From: Rhodocytophaga aerolata
GTDB lineage: Bacteria > Bacteroidota > Bacteroidia > Cytophagales > 172606-1
Length of the DNA stretch: 64,000 bases
Direction: 5' to 3'
Assembly (NCBI RefSeq): GCF_030503435.1
Contig: NZ_JAUKPO010000001.1
Coordinates: 186,001-250,000, forward strand
Positions 3,352-37,070 of this stretch are shown here, piece by piece. Within the stretch, counting starts at the first letter, position 1; every line of letters begins with the position of its first letter. The notes beneath the pieces are model-generated. The model made no database searches. It was not told where the DNA came from and was given only the letters and a program-made list of their open reading frames with translations. Both the position numbers and the translations under genes were made by a program.

Positions 3352-3440
3352 GGAAATTTTCAGAATCCAACTATAAACTAGCAAGCAAACGGCCTACCTT
3401 TAAGATTTGATCAAACAGGGCTTAGCCGGCAAGGTTTTGT

Positions 3441-4457
3441 TCAGACCTGGCCCAGCAGCGGTATTTTTACTGAGAAGATCTGATTGTTAGTAAGGATTTC
3501 TATCTTTTTTGGAGTCAGAAAATTATACCGGTTGATAATATTTTGCAGCCCAACTTTTGTCGACTTTTCAAAGGTTAATTTTTCCTGAATATTATTCTCA
3601 ATACTCAGATACTCATTGTTGTCCGAAACAATCCGGATAGTAAGCGGTTTATCTTTAGAGATAATATTGTGTTTAATGGCATTTTCTACCAGCATCTGTA
3701 ACGTTAAAGGAGGCACCATGTATTTGTGGTACTCAGCTGAAATCTGGTTATCTATCTGTACGTTTTCCCGGAAGCGGGCTTTAATCAGGTAACTATACGA
3801 CTCCACAAACTTCATCTCTTCTTCCAGGGTTACAGTGTTTTTGTCTTTGCTCAGCAGCACATAGCGGTACACATCCGATAATTGCTCCAGGTATTTCTGG
3901 GCAGGTTCGTTGGTATCGTCTATCAGGGCCGCCAGCGTGTTGAGGCTATTAAATAAAAAATGCGGGTCTATCTGGCTTTTGAGTACTTCCAGCTGCGATT
4001 GAATATTCTCTCTGGCTAATGCTTCTGCCCGTTGAATATGTTTTTTCCATTGCTCAAAAAAGTACACACTTTCGTAGACACACGTGACCATTAACGTAGG
4101 AATAATACTGGTGATAATACCACCAATAATGTTTGCCTGATTAAACTCGCAATGCTTGATTGTTACGCTTAACAAGAACGTGAGTGTAGTGGAAGCAACG
4201 ATGGTATATAAAAGACTTGCAATCGTTTGTACAATAATCCGGTTCCTAGTCTGCTGATACCCGGCATATTTTCGCCGCATGAGAATAAAAATAAACCGGT
4301 TCCCCTCCCACATAGCCGTTGTAAACACCAGGCAGGCAATAAAATGCTGCAGCGACACCTGGTTAAAGGCAAGCATTTCTTCAGAATCCTGTATCAGCGG
4401 AATTATCAGACTAATCAGCGGTATACCAATAAGTCTGGCCCATTTATCGTTCATCAT
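3441..4457 (-). CDS. LytS-type membrane sensor histidine kinase
   Basis: Inner-membrane kinase of the His_kinase (PF06580) type, 338 residues. Four hydrophobic segments fill roughly residues 8-150, followed by a short linker helix and the phospho-accepting motif QIDPHFLFNSLN with His166. The N box is LVENAIKHN. The C-terminal ATPase is short and has no clear GxGxGL box, which is common in this family. No extracellular sensor domain is present, so the signal is probably seen within or at the membrane. It is followed by its LytTR partner and preceded at 80 bp by a TonB-dependent receptor gene. Two adjacent ATGs (4457 and 4454) are possible starts. Confidence 0.9.
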   Translation of the reverse strand: MMNDKWARLIGIPLISLIIPLIQDSEEMLAFNQVSLQHFIACLVFTTAMWEGNRFIFILMRRKYAGYQQTRNRIIVQTIASLLYTIVASTTLTFLLSVTIKHCEFNQANIIGGIITSIIPTLMVTCVYESVYFFEQWKKHIQRAEALARENIQSQLEVLKSQIDPHFLFNSLNTLAALIDDTNEPAQKYLEQLSDVYRYVLLSKDKNTVTLEEEMKFVESYSYLIKARFRENVQIDNQISAEYHKYMVPPLTLQMLVENAIKHNIISKDKPLTIRIVSDNNEYLSIENNIQEKLTFEKSTKVGLQNIINRYNFLTPKKIEILTNNQIFSVKIPLLGQV

Positions 4458-4537
4458 ACCTATATATGTTCGAGAAGTAAGTTACTAATTTTCAAAACGT
4501 TTCAAAAGCGGCTTGTTATAAGTAATGGCTGTTCAAG

Positions 4538-6907
4538 TTAAAACAGCAGCCGGTATTGTGGTATGGGAAAAAACCCAATCTGGTACTCAGTAGCAATTCT
4601 GTTGGTCCGGGCATTGTACTGCTGGGTAAACACATTTTTATTGTTGGTTAGGTTTTGCAAGTCCAGGGAAAATTCGTGCGTGGTTTTCTGACGGTTCATG
4701 CGGAAAGAGAATTTTACATCAGTGCGGAAGTAGTTGCTAAGCTGTGTAGAAAAAGCAACGTCTTGTCTATATACAGCCTCCCCGGCAAGTCTTGATTTTT
4801 CAAGATCTATGGGTGTTACATGGCGGCCACCGGCAGTGGTTAACTTCCAGTCAATATTAAATACATTATTTTTATTCCCTACTTTAAACTCCTTTCCTGC
4901 CAGCAGATTTACCACATATTGGCCATTGAAGGTTGTATTGCGTAATACCTGGTCGCTTCCTTTATATTTAGAATCGAAGAGCGAAGAGGTGAACAGAAAG
5001 TAATAGCCACTGCTATAAAATTTCTCCAGGGTAAGCTCTATTCCGTAATTACGGCCAGTGCCCCGGTTTACTAAACTGTCTTCCTCTGGCATAGAAAAAT
5101 CGGCTCCGGCATTTAGCATAGAAAAGCTGCTAATCCGTTGCTCTACAGGCGCTTTGGTAATATATTGGTAGTAAGTCTCTACTTTCAGGCGCAAATTATC
5201 GCTGAGCATACGGTCATAACCCAGTACCAGATGCTGGCTGCGGGTAAAGTTCATGTTTTTATTGGTGAGCAACACCCTTCCATCAGCCAAGCGGGTCTGA
5301 TTGAAGTAGGTAAGCAGCGGTTGCATCTGGCTGTGGTAGCCATAGCCAAAATTCAGCGATTGTTTAGGCGCAAACTGGTATTTCAGGCCAAGTCTGGGCT
5401 CTACTGCTAAACTGTTGCTCAGGGAAAAATGCTGTACGTTTACTCCACCGTTCAACGTAAGCAAGTCAGTAAAGCGGTGCTGCCCTTGTCCGTAAATTTG
5501 GGTGAGCAGGCTGTTTCCCTGGCTATTGCGTACATCGCGGAATTCGGTGGGAGTAACCAACGACCGCTCGGTAAGCACAAAGTCATACAAATCACTAATC
5601 AAGCCTAGAGTAGCACTGTTTCTGGCGTTAAACTTCTTATTAATTAAATAGTTAATTGAATATTTATTTTGTGTATAAGCGGCCTCTACCCGGCGAAAAG
5701 GGCTTCTGTCTTCCAGACTTAACGAATCTTCTTTATAGCTCTGCCAGTTAGTAGAGGCCGCAACAGCAATTTTAGAATAGGTAGAAGAATTATGGTAATA
5801 GGTATACGAAGCCCCTATTATCCCATTTCGGAAGTCAGAATAGGAATCCTGGCTTTCTTCCCCAAATAAGTTAGTAGAGGAGGTAGTATCTATATCGTCT
5901 CCCAGGAACTTAATCCGGCTGGTGCCCCCCAGACCAAACACGGTAAATCTTCCTGCCTTAGAGGTGGGTATATCTATTTTAAAGCTTAAGTCCTGATATT
6001 GTGGAGTGGCCGCACCGGTACCAAAGTCAATACCCAATGCCTGGAACACTCCTAAGGTAGAGTAGCGGTAGTTTACCAGATAAGAAGCCCGGCTGTTTTT
6101 GGAGAAAGGCCCTTCGATGCCCACCTCAAATCCATTGAAGCCAATCTGACCCAGGTATTCCCGTTTATCTTTGTTGCCATTGCGCAGTTGCAGGTCGAAT
6201 ACCCCGGCAATAGCATTACCATACTGGGCTGGGAAAGCGGCTGTCATAAAATCAGACCGGTCCAGCACATTGTTGTTGAGCATACTTACCGGTCCGCCAG
6301 TGGCACCTAAAGCTCCATAATGACTTGGATTGGGAATATTTATGCCATCCAGCCGCCATAGCAAACCAGAGGGAGAATTACCCCTGATCACTATATCATT
6401 CCGGGCATCATTTGCCCCACTTACCCCCGCAAAGTTGGCTGCCATCCGGGCTGGGTCATTGCGGCTGCCAGCATACCGGGAAGTTTCTTCAATATCGAAC
6501 GAGCGGGCACTCAAGGTAGCAAACTCATTATTGGTTTCTGTTTTATAGCGTTTAGCCGTTACTGTTACTTCAGCGGTAGTTACTACTTGTTCTTCCAGCT
6601 CTACAGAAATTACCACTTCTTTGCCGGATGTTACCAGTATATTAGACAACACCCTGTCCTGATACCCTAAATAGGATACTTTAATGGCCTGCCTACCCAG
6701 TGGAACATTACTAAGCTTGAAATGGCCATTGACATCTGTTGACGACCCAATTAGAGGTTGGGTGCCTATAACAACAATGTTTGCCCCGATCAACGGATAT
6801 TTCGATTGGGCATCGGTAAGTACACCTTTGATGGTTTGCGTGCCTGATTGGGCCATGGCTACATGGCAAAGCAGCGACAGGATGAGAAAGAAAACAAGTT
6901 TATTCAT
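4538..6907 (-). CDS. TonB-dependent outer-membrane receptor with carboxypeptidase-like N-domain
   Basis: Outer-membrane transporter of 789 residues. A signal peptide (residues 1-19, ending CHVAMAQ) precedes a CarboxypepD_reg-like beta-sandwich (about 24-105; GVLTDAQSKYPLIGANI), a plug (about 120-235) containing DIVIRGNSPSGLLWRLDG, and a 22-strand type barrel ending in the aromatic terminus PQYRLLF. It lacks the SusC signature and has no SusD neighbour, so it is an ordinary TBDR; the substrate cannot be told. The LytS/LytTR genes follow on the same strand after 80 bp. Confidence 0.92.
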   Translation of the reverse strand: MNKLVFFLILSLLCHVAMAQSGTQTIKGVLTDAQSKYPLIGANIVVIGTQPLIGSSTDVNGHFKLSNVPLGRQAIKVSYLGYQDRVLSNILVTSGKEVVISVELEEQVVTTAEVTVTAKRYKTETNNEFATLSARSFDIEETSRYAGSRNDPARMAANFAGVSGANDARNDIVIRGNSPSGLLWRLDGINIPNPSHYGALGATGGPVSMLNNNVLDRSDFMTAAFPAQYGNAIAGVFDLQLRNGNKDKREYLGQIGFNGFEVGIEGPFSKNSRASYLVNYRYSTLGVFQALGIDFGTGAATPQYQDLSFKIDIPTSKAGRFTVFGLGGTSRIKFLGDDIDTTSSTNLFGEESQDSYSDFRNGIIGASYTYYHNSSTYSKIAVAASTNWQSYKEDSLSLEDRSPFRRVEAAYTQNKYSINYLINKKFNARNSATLGLISDLYDFVLTERSLVTPTEFRDVRNSQGNSLLTQIYGQGQHRFTDLLTLNGGVNVQHFSLSNSLAVEPRLGLKYQFAPKQSLNFGYGYHSQMQPLLTYFNQTRLADGRVLLTNKNMNFTRSQHLVLGYDRMLSDNLRLKVETYYQYITKAPVEQRISSFSMLNAGADFSMPEEDSLVNRGTGRNYGIELTLEKFYSSGYYFLFTSSLFDSKYKGSDQVLRNTTFNGQYVVNLLAGKEFKVGNKNNVFNIDWKLTTAGGRHVTPIDLEKSRLAGEAVYRQDVAFSTQLSNYFRTDVKFSFRMNRQKTTHEFSLDLQNLTNNKNVFTQQYNARTNRIATEYQIGFFPIPQYRLLF

Positions 6908-7172
6908 AGGTTTGTGGCGTTTACCAGATAAATATCATACATGCGGCTCATGAATAATATATTAAAGAGGGTGAACCGTAGTAGCCTTCCTACAAACCGT
7001 ATGAACAAAAGGCCAAACCGTAGTATGGGCAGGGAAACAATGCGGTTATAATCGGAACAGCTGTATTCGTAACGCATAGCTACGGAATGGTAGAATTTGC
7101 TTTTCATCACAATTCGTTTGTCAATTCCCGGAGAAATGTATTATTTCACAGCTGAATCAATTATTATTGGGC

Positions 7173-8144
7173 ATGGACGTTAACCAGATAGCCACTAAAA
7201 TTAATCAGGAGATTGCTGCTTTGCAATACGGACAGCACCCGCCGGAACTATATGAACCTATCCGGTATATGATGTCTTTGGGCGGAAAAAGGCTTCGCCC
7301 GGTGCTTACCCTCCTGGCAACTTCTTTATATACAGATGATTGGCAACGGTATGCCAAGCCGGCGTTAGCCGTAGAAGTATTCCACAACTTCACCCTCATG
7401 CACGACGATATTATGGATGCCGCCCCTCTGCGGCGGGGTAAACCTACTGTGCATACCCAATGGAACAACAATGTGGCTATTCTCTCTGGTGATGTAATGC
7501 TGGTAAATGCGTATGAGTTGCTCCTTGAACTTCCTGCCCAGCAATTGGCACAGGTTATCCGGCGGTTTAACCGCTGTGCTGCCGAAGTTTGCGAAGGCCA
7601 ACAGCTAGATATGAACTTTGAAAAACAACCCGGTGTAACAGAAGAAGATTACCTGGAAATGATCCGGCTGAAAACAGCGGCTTTGCTAGGTTTTAGCCTG
7701 GAACTAGGCGGGTTAATGGTGGGGGCAGATCATACAGATACCACGTTGCTTTACGAGCTGGGTGAAAGTATAGGCATTGGCTTTCAGCTAAAAGACGACC
7801 TGCTGGATGTATTTGGGGAGCAGGCCAAAGTAGGCAAACAGGTTGGCGGCGATATTATGGCTAACAAAAAAACTTTTCTGCTGATTAAAGCTCTGCAAGA
7901 AGCACAAGAGCAGGACTTAGAAGAGCTGACCTACTGGCTGAATCAGCCCTCTTTTGTTCCGGAAGAAAAAGTAAAAGCTATAACAGCTATTTACGAACGG
8001 CTGGATATCCGACAGATTGCTGAGAATAAAATGAATGAATATTTTGCTTTAGGAATGTTCTGTCTGGATAGACTTCATGCCAATACAGCCAAAAAAGAAG
8101 CATTAAAACAGTTTATTGAGCAAATTATTGCCCGTGAAAACTAA
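7173..8144 (+). CDS. Polyprenyl diphosphate synthase (trans-isoprenyl chain elongation)
   Basis: Condenses isopentenyl diphosphate onto an allylic primer to make a polyprenyl diphosphate, probably the menaquinone side chain. Both aspartate-rich motifs are intact: DDIMD (Asp78 onward) and DDLLD (Asp208 onward), with GGKRLRP near the start and LKTAALLGFS before the second motif. Length (323 residues) fits the family. I use the ATG at 7173; a TTG two codons upstream is less likely. The residues before the first motif include no very bulky pair, which would suit a long-chain product, but chain length is an inference. Confidence 0.93.
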   Translation: MDVNQIATKINQEIAALQYGQHPPELYEPIRYMMSLGGKRLRPVLTLLATSLYTDDWQRYAKPALAVEVFHNFTLMHDDIMDAAPLRRGKPTVHTQWNNNVAILSGDVMLVNAYELLLELPAQQLAQVIRRFNRCAAEVCEGQQLDMNFEKQPGVTEEDYLEMIRLKTAALLGFSLELGGLMVGADHTDTTLLYELGESIGIGFQLKDDLLDVFGEQAKVGKQVGGDIMANKKTFLLIKALQEAQEQDLEELTYWLNQPSFVPEEKVKAITAIYERLDIRQIAENKMNEYFALGMFCLDRLHANTAKKEALKQFIEQIIAREN

Positions 8145-27715: not shown

Positions 27716-28417
27716 TTATTGAAGTTTGAATATAATGGGTAAGGCCATACGTACTCTTACAGGTTTTCCGCGTTGCTTGGCTGGTGTCCATTTAGGTGCT
27801 TTTTGAAGTATGCGGATAGCTTCTTCATCCAGGCCAAATCCTAAACCTTTAATAACTTTCACTTCTGTAATGCTGCCATCTTTATCAATCACAAACTGCA
27901 CAAATACTTTGCCCTCCACACCAGATTGCTGGGCTGCTTTAGGATATCTCAAATGCTTGCTGATGTATTCATAAAACTGGGCTCTGCCTTCCGGCTCTTT
28001 TTCCAGAACATATACATCTACCACCGCATCTTCTACTATCTCTTCAGGAATCACCTCTGGCAGAACGGAAACAGGTGCCGGAATAACATCCGGCACATCC
28101 GGAAGATCTGAGAGTAAATGATCATCTGGCGACAGGGCATCTTCTACAATAGTGGATAAATCTTCCGGAGGCTGAGGCAGTTTTTCTAAAGGCTTTTCAG
28201 GAGGTGGAATAACAGCCGGAATAGGCGGAATATCTACTAATTCAAAATCATCTGCAGGCTTATAGTCAATTTTCTCACCGTTGTCGCCGGATAATGCCGG
28301 ATAGGTTTTCCACTCAAACGCCAGTAAACATAGGGACAGGCTAATGACTAAGCCCACATTCAGAAATAAGGTATATTTCTTGCCTAATTCCAGTTCAGGT
28401 TTCTTTTTATGTTCCAT
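27716..28417 (-). CDS. TonB-family energy transducer (copy 1, most divergent)
   Basis: 233 residues. One N-terminal inner-membrane anchor (about 16-37, LFLNVGLVISLSLCLLAFEWKTY), a proline/acid-rich periplasmic linker (IPPIPAVIPPPEKPLEK), and the C-terminal TonB domain (last 90 residues; EGKVFVQFVIDKDGSITEVKV, KAPKWTPAKQRGKPVRVRM). It would couple the proton-motive force, through ExbB/ExbD, to outer-membrane receptors. It is the last of three tandem paralogues and does not share their identical 3' block. Confidence 0.93.
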   Translation of the reverse strand: MEHKKKPELELGKKYTLFLNVGLVISLSLCLLAFEWKTYPALSGDNGEKIDYKPADDFELVDIPPIPAVIPPPEKPLEKLPQPPEDLSTIVEDALSPDDHLLSDLPDVPDVIPAPVSVLPEVIPEEIVEDAVVDVYVLEKEPEGRAQFYEYISKHLRYPKAAQQSGVEGKVFVQFVIDKDGSITEVKVIKGLGFGLDEEAIRILQKAPKWTPAKQRGKPVRVRMALPIIFKLQ

Positions 28418-28452
28418 GCGAATATTTTTGAAAATTGTGGTAGCTGGAACAA

Positions 28453-29133
28453 TTAACCCAGTTTAAAAACAACTGGAAGCGACATTTTTACTTTCACCGG
28501 ACGGCCTCTTTGCTTACCGGGTGTCCACTTAGGCATGTTCTTGATTACCCGTACGGCTTCTTCGTCGCAGCCAGAACCAATCCCTTTCAATACGGTAATA
28601 TCTGTGGGCGAACCGTCTTTGTCAATTACGAACTGTACGAATACTTTCCCTTCTACGTTCATGCGTCTGGCCTGCTCTGGGTATTTCAGGTTCTTTTGTA
28701 AGTACTTACCAAATCCGTCAAATCCACCTTCGGGCATCGGCGGGTTCTCAACAACAATGAATGTGCCTTCAGTATCTTCCTCTTGTATGGGTTCAGCAGC
28801 TTTTTCTATAGGTAGCGTAGGTGGAGCTATTATTGTTTCAGGAGTAATCTCTGTCTCGAAAATTGCTAACTCTTCCTCAATTTCTTCTTCTTTTACTTCA
28901 ATAATTTCGGGCTGTACTTTTGGAGGGGGCGGCGGTGTAAGATCTGTAATGGGAATAACTAAGGTAACTTCTGGCTCAATTGTTTTAACACCTATATCCA
29001 CCCCGGAAAGATCGTCATAGGTTTTCCATTCGAAGGCTGCCAGACAAAGGGCCAGACTGATTACCAATCCAATATTGAGAAATAAACTGTACTTGTTGGC
29101 TAATTCTACTTTTGGGTTCTTTTTGGCTTCCAT
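28453..29133 (-). CDS. TonB-family energy transducer (copy 2)
   Basis: 226 residues with the same plan: anchor (about 14-36), linker rich in Glu and Pro (PPPPPKVQPEIIEVKEEE), and a TonB C-domain. Nucleotides 28489-28680 are identical to 29342-29533 in copy 3, a 192-bp block that covers most of the C-domain, while the anchor and linker differ. This is the mark of recent gene conversion or duplication. Confidence 0.93.
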   Translation of the reverse strand: MEAKKNPKVELANKYSLFLNIGLVISLALCLAAFEWKTYDDLSGVDIGVKTIEPEVTLVIPITDLTPPPPPKVQPEIIEVKEEEIEEELAIFETEITPETIIAPPTLPIEKAAEPIQEEDTEGTFIVVENPPMPEGGFDGFGKYLQKNLKYPEQARRMNVEGKVFVQFVIDKDGSPTDITVLKGIGSGCDEEAVRVIKNMPKWTPGKQRGRPVKVKMSLPVVFKLG

Positions 29134-29256
29134 ATCATTAATGTTTAAGAAAGTGGATAACGAGTTTAAACTTTACTGATAGGATGCAGACACATTATTT
29201 ATTCCATAAATTGTTGGAGATTTATCTTAAAAAATTCTTTCCTATATACAAAGCAC

Positions 29257-29288
29257 AAAAAAAGCCCGGAATAACCGGGCTTTAAAAA
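29257..29288 (-). terminator. Terminator after tonB copy 3
   Basis: Perfect 9-bp stem AAAGCCCGG / CCGGGCTTT (29261-29269 and 29275-29283) with loop AATAA, and a run of A on the left that is a U-run on the minus strand. tonB copies 2 and 3 are thus separate transcription units. Confidence 0.85.
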
Positions 29289-29305
29289 AACATATTCTTG
29301 GTATA

Positions 29306-29989
29306 TTAACCTAACTTAAATACAATAGGTAAAGACATACGTACTTTCACCGGACGGCCTCTTTGCTTACCGGGTGTCCACTTAGGCATGTTCTTGATTA
29401 CCCGTACGGCTTCTTCGTCGCAGCCAGAACCAATCCCTTTCAATACGGTAATATCTGTGGGCGAACCGTCTTTGTCAATTACGAACTGTACGAATACTTT
29501 CCCTTCTACGTTCATGCGTCTGGCCTGCTCTGGATATTTCAGGTTCTTTTGCAGATACTGCATAAAGGCACCCATCCCTCCTACTGGCTCAGGCTGGTTT
29601 TCCACCACCTGGAAAATTTCATCTACTTCTTCTTCTTGTACAGGAGCGGCAACTTCGGCAGGTGGTGCTGGCGGAGCTACTACCGTTTCAGGAGTAATCT
29701 CTGTATCCAGGTTTACTAGTTCTTCTTCAATTTCTTCTTCATCAGGCACCTCTACGATTTCGGGTTGCTGTATAACTGGAGGAGGTGGAGGCGGCATTTC
29801 AGTAATTGGAATATCTATTAACTCTTCCGTCTGAACTTCAGCCGGGGCATAGTTCATGGCTGAAAGATCATCGTACGATTTCCATTCAAACGCAAGTAGG
29901 GTCAATCCCAGAGCCACTACCAGTCCGATGTTAAGAAACAGACCAGACTGGCGGGATAAGTCTACTTTCGGATTCTTTTTTAGTTCCAT
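29306..29989 (-). CDS. TonB-family energy transducer (copy 3)
   Basis: 227 residues, anchor (about 14-36), a linker with PPPPPVIQQPEI and VAPPAPPAEVA, and a C-domain nearly identical to copy 2. The C-terminus PVKVRMSLPIVFKLG is shared. The 171-bp gap to copy 2 carries a terminator, so the copies may be controlled separately. Confidence 0.93.
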   Translation of the reverse strand: MELKKNPKVDLSRQSGLFLNIGLVVALGLTLLAFEWKSYDDLSAMNYAPAEVQTEELIDIPITEMPPPPPPVIQQPEIVEVPDEEEIEEELVNLDTEITPETVVAPPAPPAEVAAPVQEEEVDEIFQVVENQPEPVGGMGAFMQYLQKNLKYPEQARRMNVEGKVFVQFVIDKDGSPTDITVLKGIGSGCDEEAVRVIKNMPKWTPGKQRGRPVKVRMSLPIVFKLG

Positions 29990-31008: not shown

Positions 31009-31659
31009 CTATTTTATAGCTTTAAATACCAGATGTTCCAAGAAAGACCCCATCTGCGTATAATCATTATCGGTTACCCGTACTTCCGTTAAAGAAGGCA
31101 GATGCGCTGCGAAAAAAACCTGCTGATGGGCGGCCTCCAGCAACGTACTCACCAGTGCATGTGCATACGGATAACCAGGACTGATGGCTAATACCAATAA
31201 AGCTACTTTATGACACAAAGCTTTATAATTTTTAAACAATCCCTCTTTATTGTCTGCATCTACTGATTTGGTCAGGTATGCTTTAGAAGATTCGCAAATA
31301 ACAATGCGGTGCAGGGCAGCTTTATTTACAGGCAAAAAGTCGAGGTTGTATCTGGTGGAATCGGTGATAATCTGAATAATGATCTTTAGTTTATGTTCCG
31401 GATCGGTTACATTATTGGTATGAAAATCAATTTGAAAATCGAGCCATGCCCAATACCAGGCAGTCAGGTATAGCAATAACTTGTGTTTGTTTTCGAAATA
31501 CCGGTAAACCGATGCTTCGGTAGAATTAATTTCGGAAGCCAGTTTTTTAAATGTAAACTGCTCAAAACCCAGCTCATCTATTAACCGGACCCCTTCAGAA
31601 ATAATACTCCGGCCTAACTCGGTTTGCTCAGGGTCCCTGACAAACACTTTATCATTCAT
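31009..31659 (-). CDS. TetR-family transcriptional regulator
   Basis: 216 residues from the ATG at 31659 (a longer frame begins ten codons earlier). The N-terminal HTH is clear: GVRLIDELGFEQFTFKKLA and STEASVYRYFENKHKLLLYL. The C-domain has no recognised ligand type. It is divergent from the ABC/HlyD/TolC operon, and the shared spacer holds two ATAGTA palindromes, so it probably represses that operon and itself. Confidence 0.9.
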   Translation of the reverse strand: MNDKVFVRDPEQTELGRSIISEGVRLIDELGFEQFTFKKLASEINSTEASVYRYFENKHKLLLYLTAWYWAWLDFQIDFHTNNVTDPEHKLKIIIQIITDSTRYNLDFLPVNKAALHRIVICESSKAYLTKSVDADNKEGLFKNYKALCHKVALLVLAISPGYPYAHALVSTLLEAAHQQVFFAAHLPSLTEVRVTDNDYTQMGSFLEHLVFKAIK

Positions 31660-31757
31660 CGCTATTCGTAATGTAGCATGCATAAACATAGATCTTTATT
31701 AAAACTTTCTGCTTACTAAAAAGTTAGGTATCAACAAGTACATAAAATTTTACAAAT

Positions 31758-31866: not shown

Positions 31867-34095
31867 ATGAAAGCTTCTGTAATTCAGGATATTATTTATA
31901 AGGTTGGTGAACTTACCGGACCTCCGGGAGAGTTGGCAGGCTTTAGGAAAAAAGTAAAAACTGACTACGAATATACCCGGGAAGAGCTTAACAGCTTTAT
32001 TTATGACTTAACAGATGAGGGTCGGCATATACACATTGCTTTTACAAATAATACCATTGCCGTAGCAAACCTGTCGGCTTTCTTGGATAGCATTACCTTT
32101 CCGGTTATTCTGTTTACGGAAACCTATCCTGGAGACATAGAACCGGCTCTTGTTTACCGGAATGAATCGGATGCCTTAGAAGTGATCAGCTATCCATCCG
32201 GAACTGTAAAAGTTTATCCGGGTGCTGCGTTGCTTTTGTCAAATGTTCAGCTTTACCTGCTTCCCGAAGAACAAACCAGCAGCCAGCAAACACAGCTCAT
32301 TACCTCTTTTCCTATTAAATATTATTCTCAGACGCTGGGGCAGGAAAATCCGGAAAGTGAGAAAAAAAGTCCTCCCAGCCCCTTACAACGATTGCTCCGG
32401 CTGCTGAACACTGAAAAAAAAGATATATGGTATATCTATGTATATGCCATTGTAGTCGGGCTCATCAGTCTGGTATTGCCTTTAGGTACGCAGGCCATTA
32501 TCGGAATGATTTCCGGAGGTATGTTTTTCAGCTCTGTGGTGGTTTTAATCTCCATAATCATAGTAGGTGTATTGGTTTCGGGCGGTTTGCAGATTATGCA
32601 GGTTACGCTGGTAGAAGTATTGCAACAACGTATTTTTGCAAGGGCAGCTTTTGAATTTGCCTTCCGGGTGCCAAAAATTAAACCGGAGGCTTTTGCATCC
32701 TATTATCCGCCTGAGTTGATGAACCGTTTTTTTGATGTGGTAGTCATTCAGAAATCATTGCCCAAAATTCTGGTAGATTTATCAGGCGCTGTATTACAAA
32801 TATTCTTTGGTATTATTTTACTGGCTTTTTACCATCCGGCTTTTCTGGCATTCGGCATGCTGTTTCTAAGCTTCTTGTTTTTGATGTTCCGGTTTACAGG
32901 TCCTAAAGGATTAGAAACCAGCTTAAGCGAATCTAAATATAAATACAAAATAGCTGCCTGGCTGGAAGAAATAGCCCGTACTTTCCCTAGCTTCCGTCTG
33001 GCAGGCGACAGCAATCTGCACATTGACCGTATGGATGATTATGTCAACAATTATCTGTATTACCGCAAAAGCCATTTCAGCATACTCAAAAACCAGTATA
33101 TCTATATTGTTATTTTCAAGACCCTAATTATAGGGGCTTTACTCATTCTGGGTTCTATCCTGGTGGTTGATAACCAGATAACCCTGGGCCAGTTTGTTGC
33201 GTCCGAAGTGGTAGTAGTATTAGTTGTAGGGGCCGTAGAAAAGATTATCTTCAATATGGAAAATGTATATGACCTGCTCACCGCTACTGAAAAAGTAGGC
33301 ACCGTTACCGATCTACCCTTAGAGAAAGACAAAGGTTCTAAAATTAAATTCAATCAATACACCAAGGGGGTACATATCAAGCTTGACAATGTCCAGTATA
33401 AGTACCCGGAGAGCACGCGTTACGCCCTGCAGAATATCAATTTGGAAGTTAAACCAGGCGAACGTATAGGAATAGCCGGAACCTTTGCTGCCGGCAGACA
33501 TACATTGGCCAATCTGCTGGCCGGCTCTATCAATACCGCTTTTGAGGGCAGCATAACGATTAATAGTATGTCTATGCGCGACATACAAGCCAGTGCCTGG
33601 CGGGTAGCCGTAGATAGTAATTTATTTTCGTATGATATTTTTGATGGGTCTATTCAGGAAAATATCTCTATGAACCGGGCCCGCATTAAGCAGGAAGATA
33701 TCTGGTGGGCAATTGAACATACTGGCCTCAGCTCGTATGTTAATAAGTTACCAGAGGGGATTGATACAAAAGTAAGTGCGCTGGGCACAAAGCTAACCAG
33801 AAGCACCCGTCATAAACTGATACTGGCCAGATGCATAGCTTCCAGGCCTAAACTGCTGATTTTTAATGATGATATGCAGGATATGCAACGTGCCGAACGC
33901 TTACAACTAATCTCTTTTCTCATACAAAAAGATAATCCCTGGACCTTGCTGGCTATTACAAACGATACTTCCTTTCTGAGCCAGTGCGACAAAGTGGTAT
34001 TGATGGACGAGAGCAGAATTGTGGAACAAGGCACCTATGCAGAACTAGCAGAGCATCCGGTACTGAAAGAAGTTACTATTACCAACATAGCCTGA
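31867..34095 (+). CDS. ABC exporter with a degenerate ATPase domain (type I secretion-like)
   Basis: 742 residues: a soluble N-domain (1-170) in the place of a C39 peptidase but with no cysteine, a membrane domain (about 190-460), and a nucleotide-binding domain (about 500-735). The fold pattern of the last is kept, but its motifs are not: Walker A reads GTFAAGRHT, so Lys is Arg544 and Ser is His545; the signature LSGGQ is LTRST (643-647); the Q-loop Gln is replaced (WRVAVDSNLF); Walker B reads LLIFNDD with Asp for Glu; and the H-switch is Asn699 (AITNDTS). The frame is long and undisturbed, so this is not a dying gene. It heads an operon with HlyD and TolC. It may be a non-hydrolytic transporter, a half of a heterodimer, or a regulator. 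Confidence 0.88.
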   Translation: MKASVIQDIIYKVGELTGPPGELAGFRKKVKTDYEYTREELNSFIYDLTDEGRHIHIAFTNNTIAVANLSAFLDSITFPVILFTETYPGDIEPALVYRNESDALEVISYPSGTVKVYPGAALLLSNVQLYLLPEEQTSSQQTQLITSFPIKYYSQTLGQENPESEKKSPPSPLQRLLRLLNTEKKDIWYIYVYAIVVGLISLVLPLGTQAIIGMISGGMFFSSVVVLISIIIVGVLVSGGLQIMQVTLVEVLQQRIFARAAFEFAFRVPKIKPEAFASYYPPELMNRFFDVVVIQKSLPKILVDLSGAVLQIFFGIILLAFYHPAFLAFGMLFLSFLFLMFRFTGPKGLETSLSESKYKYKIAAWLEEIARTFPSFRLAGDSNLHIDRMDDYVNNYLYYRKSHFSILKNQYIYIVIFKTLIIGALLILGSILVVDNQITLGQFVASEVVVVLVVGAVEKIIFNMENVYDLLTATEKVGTVTDLPLEKDKGSKIKFNQYTKGVHIKLDNVQYKYPESTRYALQNINLEVKPGERIGIAGTFAAGRHTLANLLAGSINTAFEGSITINSMSMRDIQASAWRVAVDSNLFSYDIFDGSIQENISMNRARIKQEDIWWAIEHTGLSSYVNKLPEGIDTKVSALGTKLTRSTRHKLILARCIASRPKLLIFNDDMQDMQRAERLQLISFLIQKDNPWTLLAITNDTSFLSQCDKVVLMDESRIVEQGTYAELAEHPVLKEVTITNIA

Positions 34096-34163
34096 TCTGG
34101 TTTTGGGAAATGAAATGAATGTATCCAGGTTGATGAATAGTTTACCAGTAATTGAAAGAACAT

Positions 34164-35513
34164 ATGCTACAGATATCTAATGAAAAAATAAAAGAATACG
34201 AATTAGAAAAAAAACTCTATTCGTTAAAAACCCTCAATACACCACGCTCGGGCAAGATACTGGCCCGGTGGCTAATTGGTATTGGGCTTTTTGGGTTTGT
34301 AGTGCTTTTTCTGCCATGGCAGCAGAATATACAAGGTAACGGAACAGTAACAGCCTTAAATCCCCAGGACCGCCCGCAAACTATTCAAACGGCGATTCCG
34401 GGCAAAATAGAAAAGTGGCACATCCAGGAAGGCCAGTATGTAACCAAAGGCGATACTATTCTTACTATTTCCGAAATCAAAGACGAATATTTTGATCCTC
34501 AGTTATTAACCAGGCTGCAAGAGCAATTGCAGGCAAAGGAACAAAGCATACAGGCCACCAAAGAAAAAGTAAAAGCCCTGGATAATCAAATAGCCGCATT
34601 GCAACAAGGCTTAACGTATAGTTTGCAAAAAGCACAAAATAAGTTGAAGCAGGCGCAATACAAATTAATTAGTGACAGCACCGAATACCAGGCAGAAATC
34701 GTGCAGAATGATATAGCTCTCCGGCGGTTTGCCGGGGCGGAAAGCTTATATAAAAATGGCCTGATCTCGCTTACCGACTTTGAAACCAGAAAATTGAAAC
34801 GCCAGGAAGTATCTGCTAAGCTAATTTCCTTAGAGAACAAAGTATTGGCTTCCAGGAATGAAGTATTAAATGCCAAAGTAGAACTTAGCTCTATTTCAGC
34901 AGAATATGCAGATAAAATAGCTAAATCCCAGTCAGATAAAAGCTCAGCGGTATCGTATCTGGCCGATGCAGACGCTGAATATTCCAAGTTACGGAACAAG
35001 TACGCCAGTGTAGAGGTACGTACCACCCAACGGTCTATTGTAGCGCCGCAATCCGGTTTTGTAGTAAAAGCCTTAAAAGCCGGTTTGGGAGAAACTATTA
35101 AGGAAAACGACCCGGTAGTAACTATTCAGCCAGATAAGCCCATGAAAGCGGTAGAACTATACGTAAAAGCCATGGATGTACCGCTGTTGTCTAAAGGCCG
35201 CACCGTACGGCTGGAGTTTGATGGGTGGCCTGCCTTACAGTTCTCCGGCTGGCCCAGTGTAGCAGTAGGTACGTTTGGCGGTAAAATAGCCGTAATAGAT
35301 TATGTAAACAGCCAGGCAGGCACTTACCGGATATTAGTTACGCCAGATCCGAATGACCAACCCTGGCCAGAACAGTTGCGGATGGGCTCCGGTGTGTATG
35401 GCTGGGCAATGTTGAATGATGTGCCTATCTGGTATGAGATATGGCGGCAGTTGAATGGTTTCCCACCTAATCTGCAGTCTGCTCCTACGGAGGGAGAACA
35501 AAAGAGCAAATAA
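34164..35513 (+). CDS. HlyD-family membrane fusion (periplasmic adaptor) protein
   Basis: About 449 residues from the ATG at 34164. One N-terminal transmembrane helix (LIGIGLFGFVVLFLPW), a lipoyl/barrel half-motif (AIPGKIEKWHIQEGQYVTKGD), a long coiled coil (about 115-280) and a second half-motif (SIVAPQSGFVVKALKAGLGE). It bridges the inner-membrane exporter and the outer-membrane channel. It follows the ABC gene after 68 bp and precedes the TolC gene by 9 bp. Confidence 0.93.
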   Translation: MLQISNEKIKEYELEKKLYSLKTLNTPRSGKILARWLIGIGLFGFVVLFLPWQQNIQGNGTVTALNPQDRPQTIQTAIPGKIEKWHIQEGQYVTKGDTILTISEIKDEYFDPQLLTRLQEQLQAKEQSIQATKEKVKALDNQIAALQQGLTYSLQKAQNKLKQAQYKLISDSTEYQAEIVQNDIALRRFAGAESLYKNGLISLTDFETRKLKRQEVSAKLISLENKVLASRNEVLNAKVELSSISAEYADKIAKSQSDKSSAVSYLADADAEYSKLRNKYASVEVRTTQRSIVAPQSGFVVKALKAGLGETIKENDPVVTIQPDKPMKAVELYVKAMDVPLLSKGRTVRLEFDGWPALQFSGWPSVAVGTFGGKIAVIDYVNSQAGTYRILVTPDPNDQPWPEQLRMGSGVYGWAMLNDVPIWYEIWRQLNGFPPNLQSAPTEGEQKSK

Positions 35514-35522
35514 GCACAGGAA

Positions 35523-37070
35523 GTGTATAACCGGCTAAAATTTACCTATCAAAAAATGAGTCAGTTAAGTGGCAAATATCCCCTGATTTCCGAGTTACAT
35601 AAGAATGTACGCTTACTCCTGTTTTCTATATCATTGCTGGGCAGCTACCTGGAAAGCCTTGCCCAGGAAACCCGCATCAGTACCGCTAAAACTACGCCAA
35701 CAGAGCAGTTGCTGAAAGACAGGGATTCTTCCAAAGCCATGAAGCTAGAGGAATTTTACGAACGTATACTCGCCTACCATCCGGTAGCTAAACAAGCTGC
35801 TTTACTTAGCCAAGAAGCCAAGCAGGAACTGCGGATGGCCAGGGGCAATTTCGACCCTAAAATTGAAGCCATCTGGGACAGAAAAGAGTTTGGAAACACT
35901 GAATACTACAACACGCTGGACAATGTACTGAAACTGCCTGTATGGATAGGCGAACTGAAAGGGGGCTATGAATACAACCGGGGAAACTACCTGAATCCGG
36001 AAAACAGAACGCCAAGTACTGGTCTGGGCTATGCCGGTATTTCCGTTCCTCTGGGACAAGGACTTATTATTGATGCCCGCCGGGCTACTTTGCGCCAGGC
36101 ACAGTATTTTCAGCAAATTGCCGAGGCCGACCGAGTAAAAGAAATAAATAAGTTATTGTTGAATGCAGCTAAAGACTACTGGAACTGGTATGTGGCTTAC
36201 AATGAATTCCGGCTGATGGAAGATGCCGTTAATCTGGCTCAGCTACGGTTCAATGCTTCCAAAGAGCGGGTAATTAATGGCGACCTTGCCCCTATTGACT
36301 CTGTGGAAGCAAAAACCCTGTTACAGGAACGGAGCATACAATACCAGCAGACTATAATAAATCAACAAAATGCACAACTGCTTGTATCCAACTACTTATG
36401 GGGCGACAATAATACCCCGCTTGAGTTAGAAGCAGATATAGCTCCGGCAAGTTTCAACTGGCCTTTGCAGGCTGTTACCGAAGAAACGCTTTCTAGTTTA
36501 ATGGATTATGCCCGGGCGCAACATCCGGAACTTGTAAAACTGGATTTTAAGTTAAAGCAGCTGAATGTAGAAGAACGGCTGCAGCGTGACCGTTTAAAGC
36601 CAGTATTAAACGTCAACTATAATTTTCTGACGGCTACCCCCTTAGCGATGGACGATATGAATATGGCCTTGCTGAGAAATAATTATAAGTTTGGCGCCCA
36701 GTTCTCTTTTCCACTCTTCCTCAGAAAAGAACGGGCTAAGCTGGGTCTAACTCAGATAAAGCAATCACAAACGTCTTTTGAGCGGCTACAGGTAAACCGG
36801 GAACTGATCAATACGATTCAGGCAAGCTATAACTCTTTAAAAAACCTAGAAGGCCTGATCCTGCTTCAACAAGACATGATTACCAACTATGAGCAACTTC
36901 GTAACGGGGAGGTGCAAAAATTTGAAGCCGGTGAAAGCTCCATATTCTTAATAAACTCCCGGGAAACCAAATTAATTGATGCGCAGGTGAAACTAATTGA
37001 CTTGCACGGTAAATATGAAAAAGAAAAAGCTACATTAATCTGGGCAGCCGGGCGGTCCACCTTAGAGTAG
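35523..37070 (+). CDS. TolC-family outer-membrane channel
   Basis: 515 residues from a GTG at 35523; the ATG at 35556 is an alternative and also leaves a signal peptide (LLFSISLLGSYLESLAQ). Two outer-membrane-efflux repeats (about 60-280 and 300-510) with the paired long helices of the channel (ARRATLRQAQYFQQIAEADR and a repeat of FERLQVNRELINTIQASYNS). It completes the three-part secretion unit and starts 9 bp after the HlyD stop. Confidence 0.92.
   Translation: MYNRLKFTYQKMSQLSGKYPLISELHKNVRLLLFSISLLGSYLESLAQETRISTAKTTPTEQLLKDRDSSKAMKLEEFYERILAYHPVAKQAALLSQEAKQELRMARGNFDPKIEAIWDRKEFGNTEYYNTLDNVLKLPVWIGELKGGYEYNRGNYLNPENRTPSTGLGYAGISVPLGQGLIIDARRATLRQAQYFQQIAEADRVKEINKLLLNAAKDYWNWYVAYNEFRLMEDAVNLAQLRFNASKERVINGDLAPIDSVEAKTLLQERSIQYQQTIINQQNAQLLVSNYLWGDNNTPLELEADIAPASFNWPLQAVTEETLSSLMDYARAQHPELVKLDFKLKQLNVEERLQRDRLKPVLNVNYNFLTATPLAMDDMNMALLRNNYKFGAQFSFPLFLRKERAKLGLTQIKQSQTSFERLQVNRELINTIQASYNSLKNLEGLILLQQDMITNYEQLRNGEVQKFEAGESSIFLINSRETKLIDAQVKLIDLHGKYEKEKATLIWAAGRSTLE

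Follow-up and report, generated by a model that had tools for sequence, protein, structure and literature searches.

EmrAB-type major facilitator superfamily (MFS) and resistance-nodulation-division (RND) tripartite pumps combine an adaptor and a TolC-type channel with a gradient-driven pump in the inner membrane, and among ATP-binding cassette (ABC) exporters the heterodimers TmrAB and TM287/288 retain one competent ATPase site. A review on tripartite pumps divides their inner membrane components into ABC, RND, and MFS types and covers degenerate motifs in nucleotide-binding domains (NBDs) such as those of TmrAB and TM287/288 (PMC8277102). For the type I secretion system (T1SS; HlyB-HlyD-TolC), an excerpt of PMC11026475 gives HlyB and HlyD in a 1:1 ratio, with three HlyB dimers and six HlyD. 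For SbmA/BacA (SLiPT), two papers propose descent from ABC exporters through loss of the NBD and of the coupling helices, and describe acidic residues in the transmembrane domain (TMD) and proton-driven transport (PMC13316013, PMC12003926). Here we describe a putative exporter operon in a 64,000-nucleotide stretch (the window) of the 9.07-Mb genome of Rhodocytophaga aerolata, in which genes for a HlyD-type adaptor and a TolC-type channel follow the gene of an ABC-exporter-like protein whose loss of ATPase function is well supported by its own motifs and those of its relatives.

The window operon has the adaptor and the channel of a T1SS within one operon and, judged by sequence, no competent NBDs. 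With HlyB and the PCAT/ComA exporters it shares the TMD sequence (ComA, 2.6e-9) and the exporter fold; unlike them, the family to which it belongs has decayed ATPase motifs or no NBD at all, gives no C39 peptidase match, and has no conserved cargo gene nearby, and in one of its clades, again unlike the T1SS, TMD and HlyD are fused. Unlike in TmrAB and TM287/288, no competent site is seen in the window protein and no partner is encoded beside it, and unlike in EmrAB-type and RND pumps, the inner membrane part is an ABC exporter TMD. With SbmA/BacA the family has in common the proposed origin from an ABC exporter by NBD loss and the acidic TMD residues. SbmA/BacA is a distinct importer family and a precedent for NBD loss: as far as the excerpts go, its members import peptides, have two extra TM0 helices, and form homodimers apparently without adaptor or channel, whereas the present family matches ABC_membrane, has HlyD and OEP genes, and holds surviving intermediates of NBD decay. 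The window protein still carries an NBD remnant and differs from SbmA/BacA in this respect, while 33 of its relatives consist of the TMD only.

Catalytic motifs of the window protein and its relatives

The features of the operon are the following.

31867..34095, forward strand: ABC-exporter-derived inner membrane protein of 742 amino acids, no internal stop, NBD without catalytic motifs
31867..32361, forward strand: N-terminal domain of about 165 amino acids, zero cysteines, no Pfam match up to E 1
32368..33321, forward strand: six-helix TMD, residues 168-485, the family's conserved core (gapless 318-column alignment A1; 188-row alignment)
33118..33120, forward strand: TM5 residue K418; position basic in 183 of 188 members
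33205..33207, forward strand: TM6 residue E447; position acidic in 188 of 188 members, as against 0 of 18 control exporters
33238..33240, forward strand: TM6 residue E458; position acidic in 185 of 188 members, with Glu in 3 of the 18 controls
33367..34092, forward strand: degenerate NBD, about residues 501-742 (PF00005, 3e-12), motifs lost
33496..33501, forward strand: R544-H545 replacing the Walker A Lys-Ser/Thr (this and the next three by motif reading and alignment)
33793..33807, forward strand: LTRST (643-647) replacing LSGGQ
33865..33870, forward strand: N667-D668 replacing the Walker B Asp-Glu
33961..33963, forward strand: N699 replacing the H-loop His
34152..35513, forward strand: HlyD-type periplasmic adaptor (Pfam HlyD_3 and HlyD_D23; TIGR01843, 1.4e-20, under the curated cut-off)
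35523..37070, forward strand: TolC-type outer membrane channel (Pfam OEP, 4.3e-33)
31009..31689, reverse strand: divergent TetR-type regulator upstream of the exporter gene (Pfam TetR_N, 3.8e-9)

The initial annotation of the window had described an intact 742-codon exporter frame with Arg for the Walker A Lys, His for the following Ser/Thr, LTRST for the signature, no Q-loop Gln, and Asn for the H-loop His, with HlyD and TolC genes directly downstream. All of this was borne out: the Walker A region (residues 538-546) reads GTFAAGRHT, and an alignment with exporters from the window's genome family places Phe at the Q-loop position (587). The further statement that every catalytic motif was lost needed two additions, as the Walker B Asp is gone too and the aromatic A-loop residue (Y511) is still present. 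Pfam matches were to ABC_tran (44.6 bits) and ABC_membrane (29.9 bits). A C39 peptidase, already doubted from the lack of cysteine in the N-terminal domain, was rejected on the sequence, since the only cysteines are at positions 656 and 707 and residues 1-165 match nothing in Pfam; this domain is missing from many relatives, including ones that retain the NBD. All of the 18 exporters of this genome family that served as controls, near-copies among them, keep the Walker A Lys and Ser/Thr, the Q-loop Gln, the Walker B Asp, and the H-loop His, indicating that the losses in the window protein are not due to chance. The catalytic Glu is present in 12 of these controls (Asp in the other 6) and the signature Ser-Gly in 12.

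At the level of the order, a profile built from the TMD alone (A1) found matches in 318 of 390 genomes (E ≤ 1e-25); the figures were 200 of 395 for the class (E ≤ 1e-10) and 98 of 395 for the phylum (E ≤ 1e-15), the three draws overlapping one another. Matches in 22 plasmid records extended the list to Persicobacter, Aureibacter, Riemerella, and several genera of Sphingomonadales. By these profile matches the family is widespread, being spread over the phylum. Close relatives (44-100% identity) occur in seven of the eight genomes of the window's genome family, the window genome included, and the eighth, which is 75% complete, gave matches of 21-25% identity only. The 195 distinct members analyzed are a non-random sample, taken from the best-listed matches at roughly one per genus; 148 have an NBD, 37 end after the TMD, 9 carry TMD and HlyD in one frame, and 1 has an unrecognised C-terminal part of NBD length. 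Dropping rows at contig ends (L177, L227) and fragments (L253, L255) left 33 TMD-only members, and the 188-row alignment and tree leave out these four and three rows with a partial TMD (L245, L249, L237). An NBD-length C-terminal part with unrecognisable motifs was noted in L234 and L238 (genome family f59), and one member (G176 C1:3908956-3911715) lies in two frames about 1.8 kb apart, as if by insertion.

Alignment with these relatives showed the motif loss to be clade-wide and not a local decay. Among 149 NBD-bearing members, mainly from the class Bacteroidia, the Walker A Lys was found in 135, the following Ser/Thr in 102, and an aromatic A-loop residue in 139; the Walker B Asp was present in 42, the catalytic Glu in 26, the signature Ser-Gly in 8, the H-loop His in 6, and the Q-loop Gln in 3. 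The catalytic Glu and the H-loop His never occur together (0 of 149), and no member has more than two of the set Walker A Lys, signature Ser-Gly, Glu, and His. The six relatives from other genomes of the window's genome family have the Walker A Lys and lack LSGGQ, the catalytic Glu, and the H-loop His. Normal motifs in relatives, which the initial annotation had named as the sign of a merely decaying copy or an error, were thus found for the Walker A Lys, which is usual, and not for the signature, the catalytic Glu, or the H-loop His. The window protein, among the 14 of 149 members that lack the Walker A Lys, is by its sequence an advanced, late stage of a family-wide decay rather than the defining case.

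Genomes from other classes with a match numbered 33, from 20 of which stretches were taken, and 17 members served as outgroup. In these the Walker A Lys, the Ser/Thr, and the Walker B Asp were present in all 17, the catalytic Glu in 16, and the H-loop His in 13, and seven members combined Lys, Ser/Thr, signature Ser and Gly, Glu, and His; the Q-loop Gln was found in 0 of 17. The mostly intact motifs of the outgroup, set against the decayed ones of the other members, point to a loss of catalysis at the base of the clade holding the Bacteroidia-class members. The three stretches from other classes kept out of the outgroup (L336, L337, L338) score like Bacteroidia-class members, have decayed motifs, and have TetR, HlyD, and OEP matches nearby, perhaps as a result of transfer between classes.

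Members without a nucleotide-binding domain

In Fibrisoma limi and F. montanum (L009 and L010), both the similarity and the open reading frame stop at about window residue 488, so that no NBD is present, and HlyD probably begins at a codon that overlaps the TMD stop. Pfam presumably holds an SbmA/BacA model; the sole Pfam match of both proteins up to E 0.01 was ABC_membrane (PF00664). Across all 33 TMD-only loci, HlyD homology begins between -8 and +121 nt from the TMD stop, which leaves no space for an NBD, and since TMD-only members occur in the single-contig genomes G313 and G222 (loci L091 and L099), an assembly error is unlikely. The nine fusions likewise have no NBD; of four that were tested, HlyD_3 scored above its cut-off in all four and ABC_membrane below its cut-off in three. 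Such a fusion would enforce the 1:1 ratio known from HlyB and HlyD.

In the tree of TMD sequences (188 rows), the 33 TMD-only rows formed a single clade nested among NBD-bearing rows (SH-aLRT 100), and the 9 fused rows formed another (SH-aLRT 100). The whole NBD was, judging from this tree, lost in two separate lineages, two losses being sufficient. Both clades held on a tree rooted with the 17 other-class rows, which leaves out eight long-branch rows (L241, L240, L243, L250, L315, L233, L231, and L208), and both were recovered from different columns in a HlyD tree (TMD-only, 30 of 30 rows, SH-aLRT 98; fused, 7 of 7, SH-aLRT 100). The TMD-only clade spans genome families f10, f12, f17, and f61, and the HlyD of the f61 rows clusters with that of the f10 genus g53. 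The NBD-less operon therefore seems to have been transferred between families as one unit, which a broken machine would hardly have been. One genome of g53 (G075; L310 and L226/L311) carries both a TMD-only member and an NBD-bearing one, which lie far apart on the tree.

Members on Sphingomonadales plasmids, annotated as ABC transporter proteins (L339, positions 3426-7651, from Novosphingobium aromaticivorans pNL2; L340; L341), carry further versions of the operon, and their NBD motifs were wrecked in the three of three that were read. In an 88-row subsample tree with weak deep forks, the Sphingomonadales rows clustered with outgroup rows (SH-aLRT 99), and the motif decay there is therefore probably independent.

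A structure prediction with AF2 for the 334-amino-acid Fibrisoma protein L009, made from five sequences, gave six long helices with intracellular loops (pLDDT 71.8, pTM 0.66); a full-length model of the window protein (pLDDT 47.9, pTM 0.34) was not used. Foldseek matched the L009 model to type IV ABC exporters, including PCAT1, HlyB, ComA, and PrtD, with probability 1.00 and TM-scores of only 0.34-0.53, and the best matches with VIA-align were ABCC, SUR, and P-glycoprotein chains (ABCC1, Z 22.5, rmsd 3.0, 301 residues aligned). The predicted fold is that of a type IV ABC exporter TMD. SbmA was not among the listed matches of either search, which excludes nothing.

The TMD-only genes are under strong purifying selection, with dN/dS of 0.004-0.036 in four of four pairs. 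In NBD-bearing pairs, dN/dS was finite in 7 of 19 cases for the TMD, with values of 0.01-0.10, and in 8 of 19 for the NBD, with values of 0.03-0.38; median identity over 10585 pairs was 0.50 in the TMD against 0.32 in the NBD. Among the 26 pairs of control exporters listed, by comparison, the NBD equalled or exceeded the TMD in conservation in 18 and was at most 0.08 lower in the other 8. Identity and dN/dS together indicate that the NBD is constrained, though more weakly than the TMD.

We also compared conservation along the TMD in bins of ten residues, whose assignment to the intracellular coupling loops (ICL1 and ICL2) we take from general exporter anatomy. TMD-only rows fell below NBD-bearing rows in 3 of 32 bins (338-347, 368-377, and 378-387), of which bins 368-387 correspond to the ICL2 region. 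In the fused rows both the ICL1 region (258-287) and the ICL2 region (358-387) were variable, and most transmembrane bins were not.

Energy source and alternative explanations

The loss of catalytic motifs and the two losses of the whole NBD indicate that the conserved function lies in the TMD, HlyD, and OEP and that the NBD is dispensable. In our judgement it is likely, if only moderately so, that the TMD protein, HlyD, and the TolC-type channel, often linked to a TetR regulator, constitute a tripartite exporter that has abandoned ATP hydrolysis and probably draws on the proton gradient instead. It would descend from an ATP-driven peptide or T1SS-type ABC exporter that lost its ATPase stepwise. 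Its TMD dimers may have kept alternating access and could feed a substrate, small or amphipathic, into the HlyD-TolC conduit, with protons moving by way of the membrane-embedded, conserved E447, E458, and K/R418, much as SbmA/BacA would have swapped ATP for protons passing along a glutamate ladder; the NBD remnant of the window protein would probably be structural. We infer both energy source and substrate; what favours the proton gradient over other drives is the example of SbmA, together with the charged residues conserved within the membrane. At positions 418 and 458, the TMD-only clade has the combinations KD (12), RE (10), KE (8), and RD (3); this variation follows subclades, and we did not accept it as a sign that the two residues pair.

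Gene content around the operon bears on both substrate and partners. Each of 22 TMD-only loci (L089-L110) has HlyD and OEP genes downstream, and 19 of them have TetR upstream. In a wider set of 30 TMD-only loci, OEP was found in 30, HlyD within the cluster in 29, and TetR in 19, other families occurring in at most 8 loci, and the 7 fused loci had OEP in 7 and TetR in 6. Beyond the OEP, HlyD, and TetR families, no widely shared cargo gene was found beside the operon within a few kb, and no genome-wide search for cargo was made. With no cargo gene linked to the operon and TetR a frequent neighbour, we suspect that the substrate is a small molecule or a lipid-like compound and not a dedicated protein.

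Several observations count against a proton-driven exporter. The acidic TM6 residue (E447) is found in 16 of the 17 outgroup members, where the ATPase motifs are mostly intact. It therefore predates the loss of the ATPase and by itself is no sign of proton coupling, and a gain of E447 upon NBD loss was rejected on the same ground. ICL1, a coupling element in true exporters, remains conserved in the TMD-only clade, which could mean that there is an unknown cytoplasmic partner. The Walker A Lys, kept in most NBD-bearing members, implies that ATP binding may still matter in those. Finally, the operon is not universal: of 61 NBD-bearing loci, 54 had HlyD and 53 had OEP in the stretch, and neither was present in 7 (L118, L153, L154, L156, L157, L164, and L168), whose partners may be elsewhere.

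The strongest competing explanation, which we nonetheless consider unlikely, is that the TMD protein serves as an anchor or gate, with the HlyD-TolC conduit acting as a passive, regulated channel from the periplasm or inner membrane outward. The presence of HlyD and OEP behind the TMD-only gene in all of the 22 loci L089-L110 and the clade in which TMD and HlyD are fused would both suit such a role, and for an anchor the loss of all energy-coupling motifs would be neutral. The TM5 and TM6 charges, however, are kept with the six-helix core in 183-188 of 188 members, which seems to go beyond the needs of an anchor, and the very low dN/dS points the same way.

The initial annotation had offered another ATPase, a non-ATP transporter, or a regulated gate as readings, perhaps as an undescribed branch of secretion. 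This set of readings is partly supported, and the case for it is stronger than first put, the NBD being decayed throughout the family and missing from some lineages; the first of them has been weakened. An ATPase acting in trans, either as a stand-alone NBD or as a competent ABC half-exporter that pairs with the TMD protein, appears improbable to us. In its favour, PMC13316013 reports ABC families with split TMD and NBD genes (YddA cases), and the TMD-only clade has a conserved ICL1. In addition, a 286-amino-acid NBD gene lies 4-5.5 kb downstream in 3 of the 22 TMD-only loci (L104, L105, and L106, in L105 with another reading frame behind it). All three belong to genus g37, however, the gene was seen in that genus only, and by eye it encodes an ordinary ABC ATPase. 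No ATPase gene is shared beside the operon in the 30 TMD-only and 7 fused loci, and an NBD gene next to the operon was rejected as a general answer, not being conserved at the loci. With the window NBD as query, none of 18 NBD-less or fused genomes yielded a close relocated NBD among the matches listed, although a strongly diverged one would escape such a search. The matches listed from these genomes had 20-30% identity and lay nearly all within full-length exporter frames, and a close relocated NBD was rejected as a general answer as well. Variability of the ICL2 region in TMD-only proteins, and of both loop regions in the fusions, also speaks against an ATPase in trans, and pairing a TMD-only subunit with a half-exporter would give a complex with just one NBD.

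It is very doubtful that NBD-bearing members bind ATP without hydrolysis and work as a regulated gate, the NBD-less ones being a derived exception. The retained Walker A Lys and aromatic A-loop residue would favour binding, but the window protein has R544-H545 at Walker A, the Lys is missing from 14 of 149 members, and two lineages do without any NBD. A decaying gene or sequencing artefact, to which the fast divergence of the NBD and the saturated dS of the window gene against its nearest relative (L015) might point, is scarcely credible given open frames in about 190 distinct members, purifying selection in relatives, a mostly conserved operon, and an NBD-less form present in four genome families.

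If the reading of a proton-driven exporter holds, these operons might, as we propose more tentatively, add another class to the ABC, RND, and MFS types of tripartite envelope exporter. In it, the membrane domain of an ABC exporter would have turned into a pump that runs on a gradient and not on ATP, the ATPase having been lost step by step; the intermediates would still be alive, and one clade would make a single TMD-HlyD polypeptide. We found no published description of the family by title or abstract start in the open-licence PMC literature; subscription papers lie mostly outside that scope, so that an earlier description is possible. The members form a natural series from near-intact ATPase through decayed ATPase and none to fusion with the adaptor, which opens a long-standing question to testing, namely what the NBD adds to an ABC exporter TMD and how a primary transporter becomes a secondary one. 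SbmA/BacA represents an importer end point whose origin was argued from a distant relative, whereas the present family holds the intermediates along with two end points. In these bacteria, then, the annotation of a gene next to those of HlyD and TolC as an ABC transporter ATP-binding protein does not have to mean that ATP drives the transporter.

Other genes in the window

Three tandem, putatively TonB-like proteins are encoded on the reverse strand at 27716-29989. Two of them (28453-29133 and 29306-29989) share near-identical C-terminal parts and differ in their proline-rich middles, so the pair looks like the product of a recent duplication or of gene conversion.

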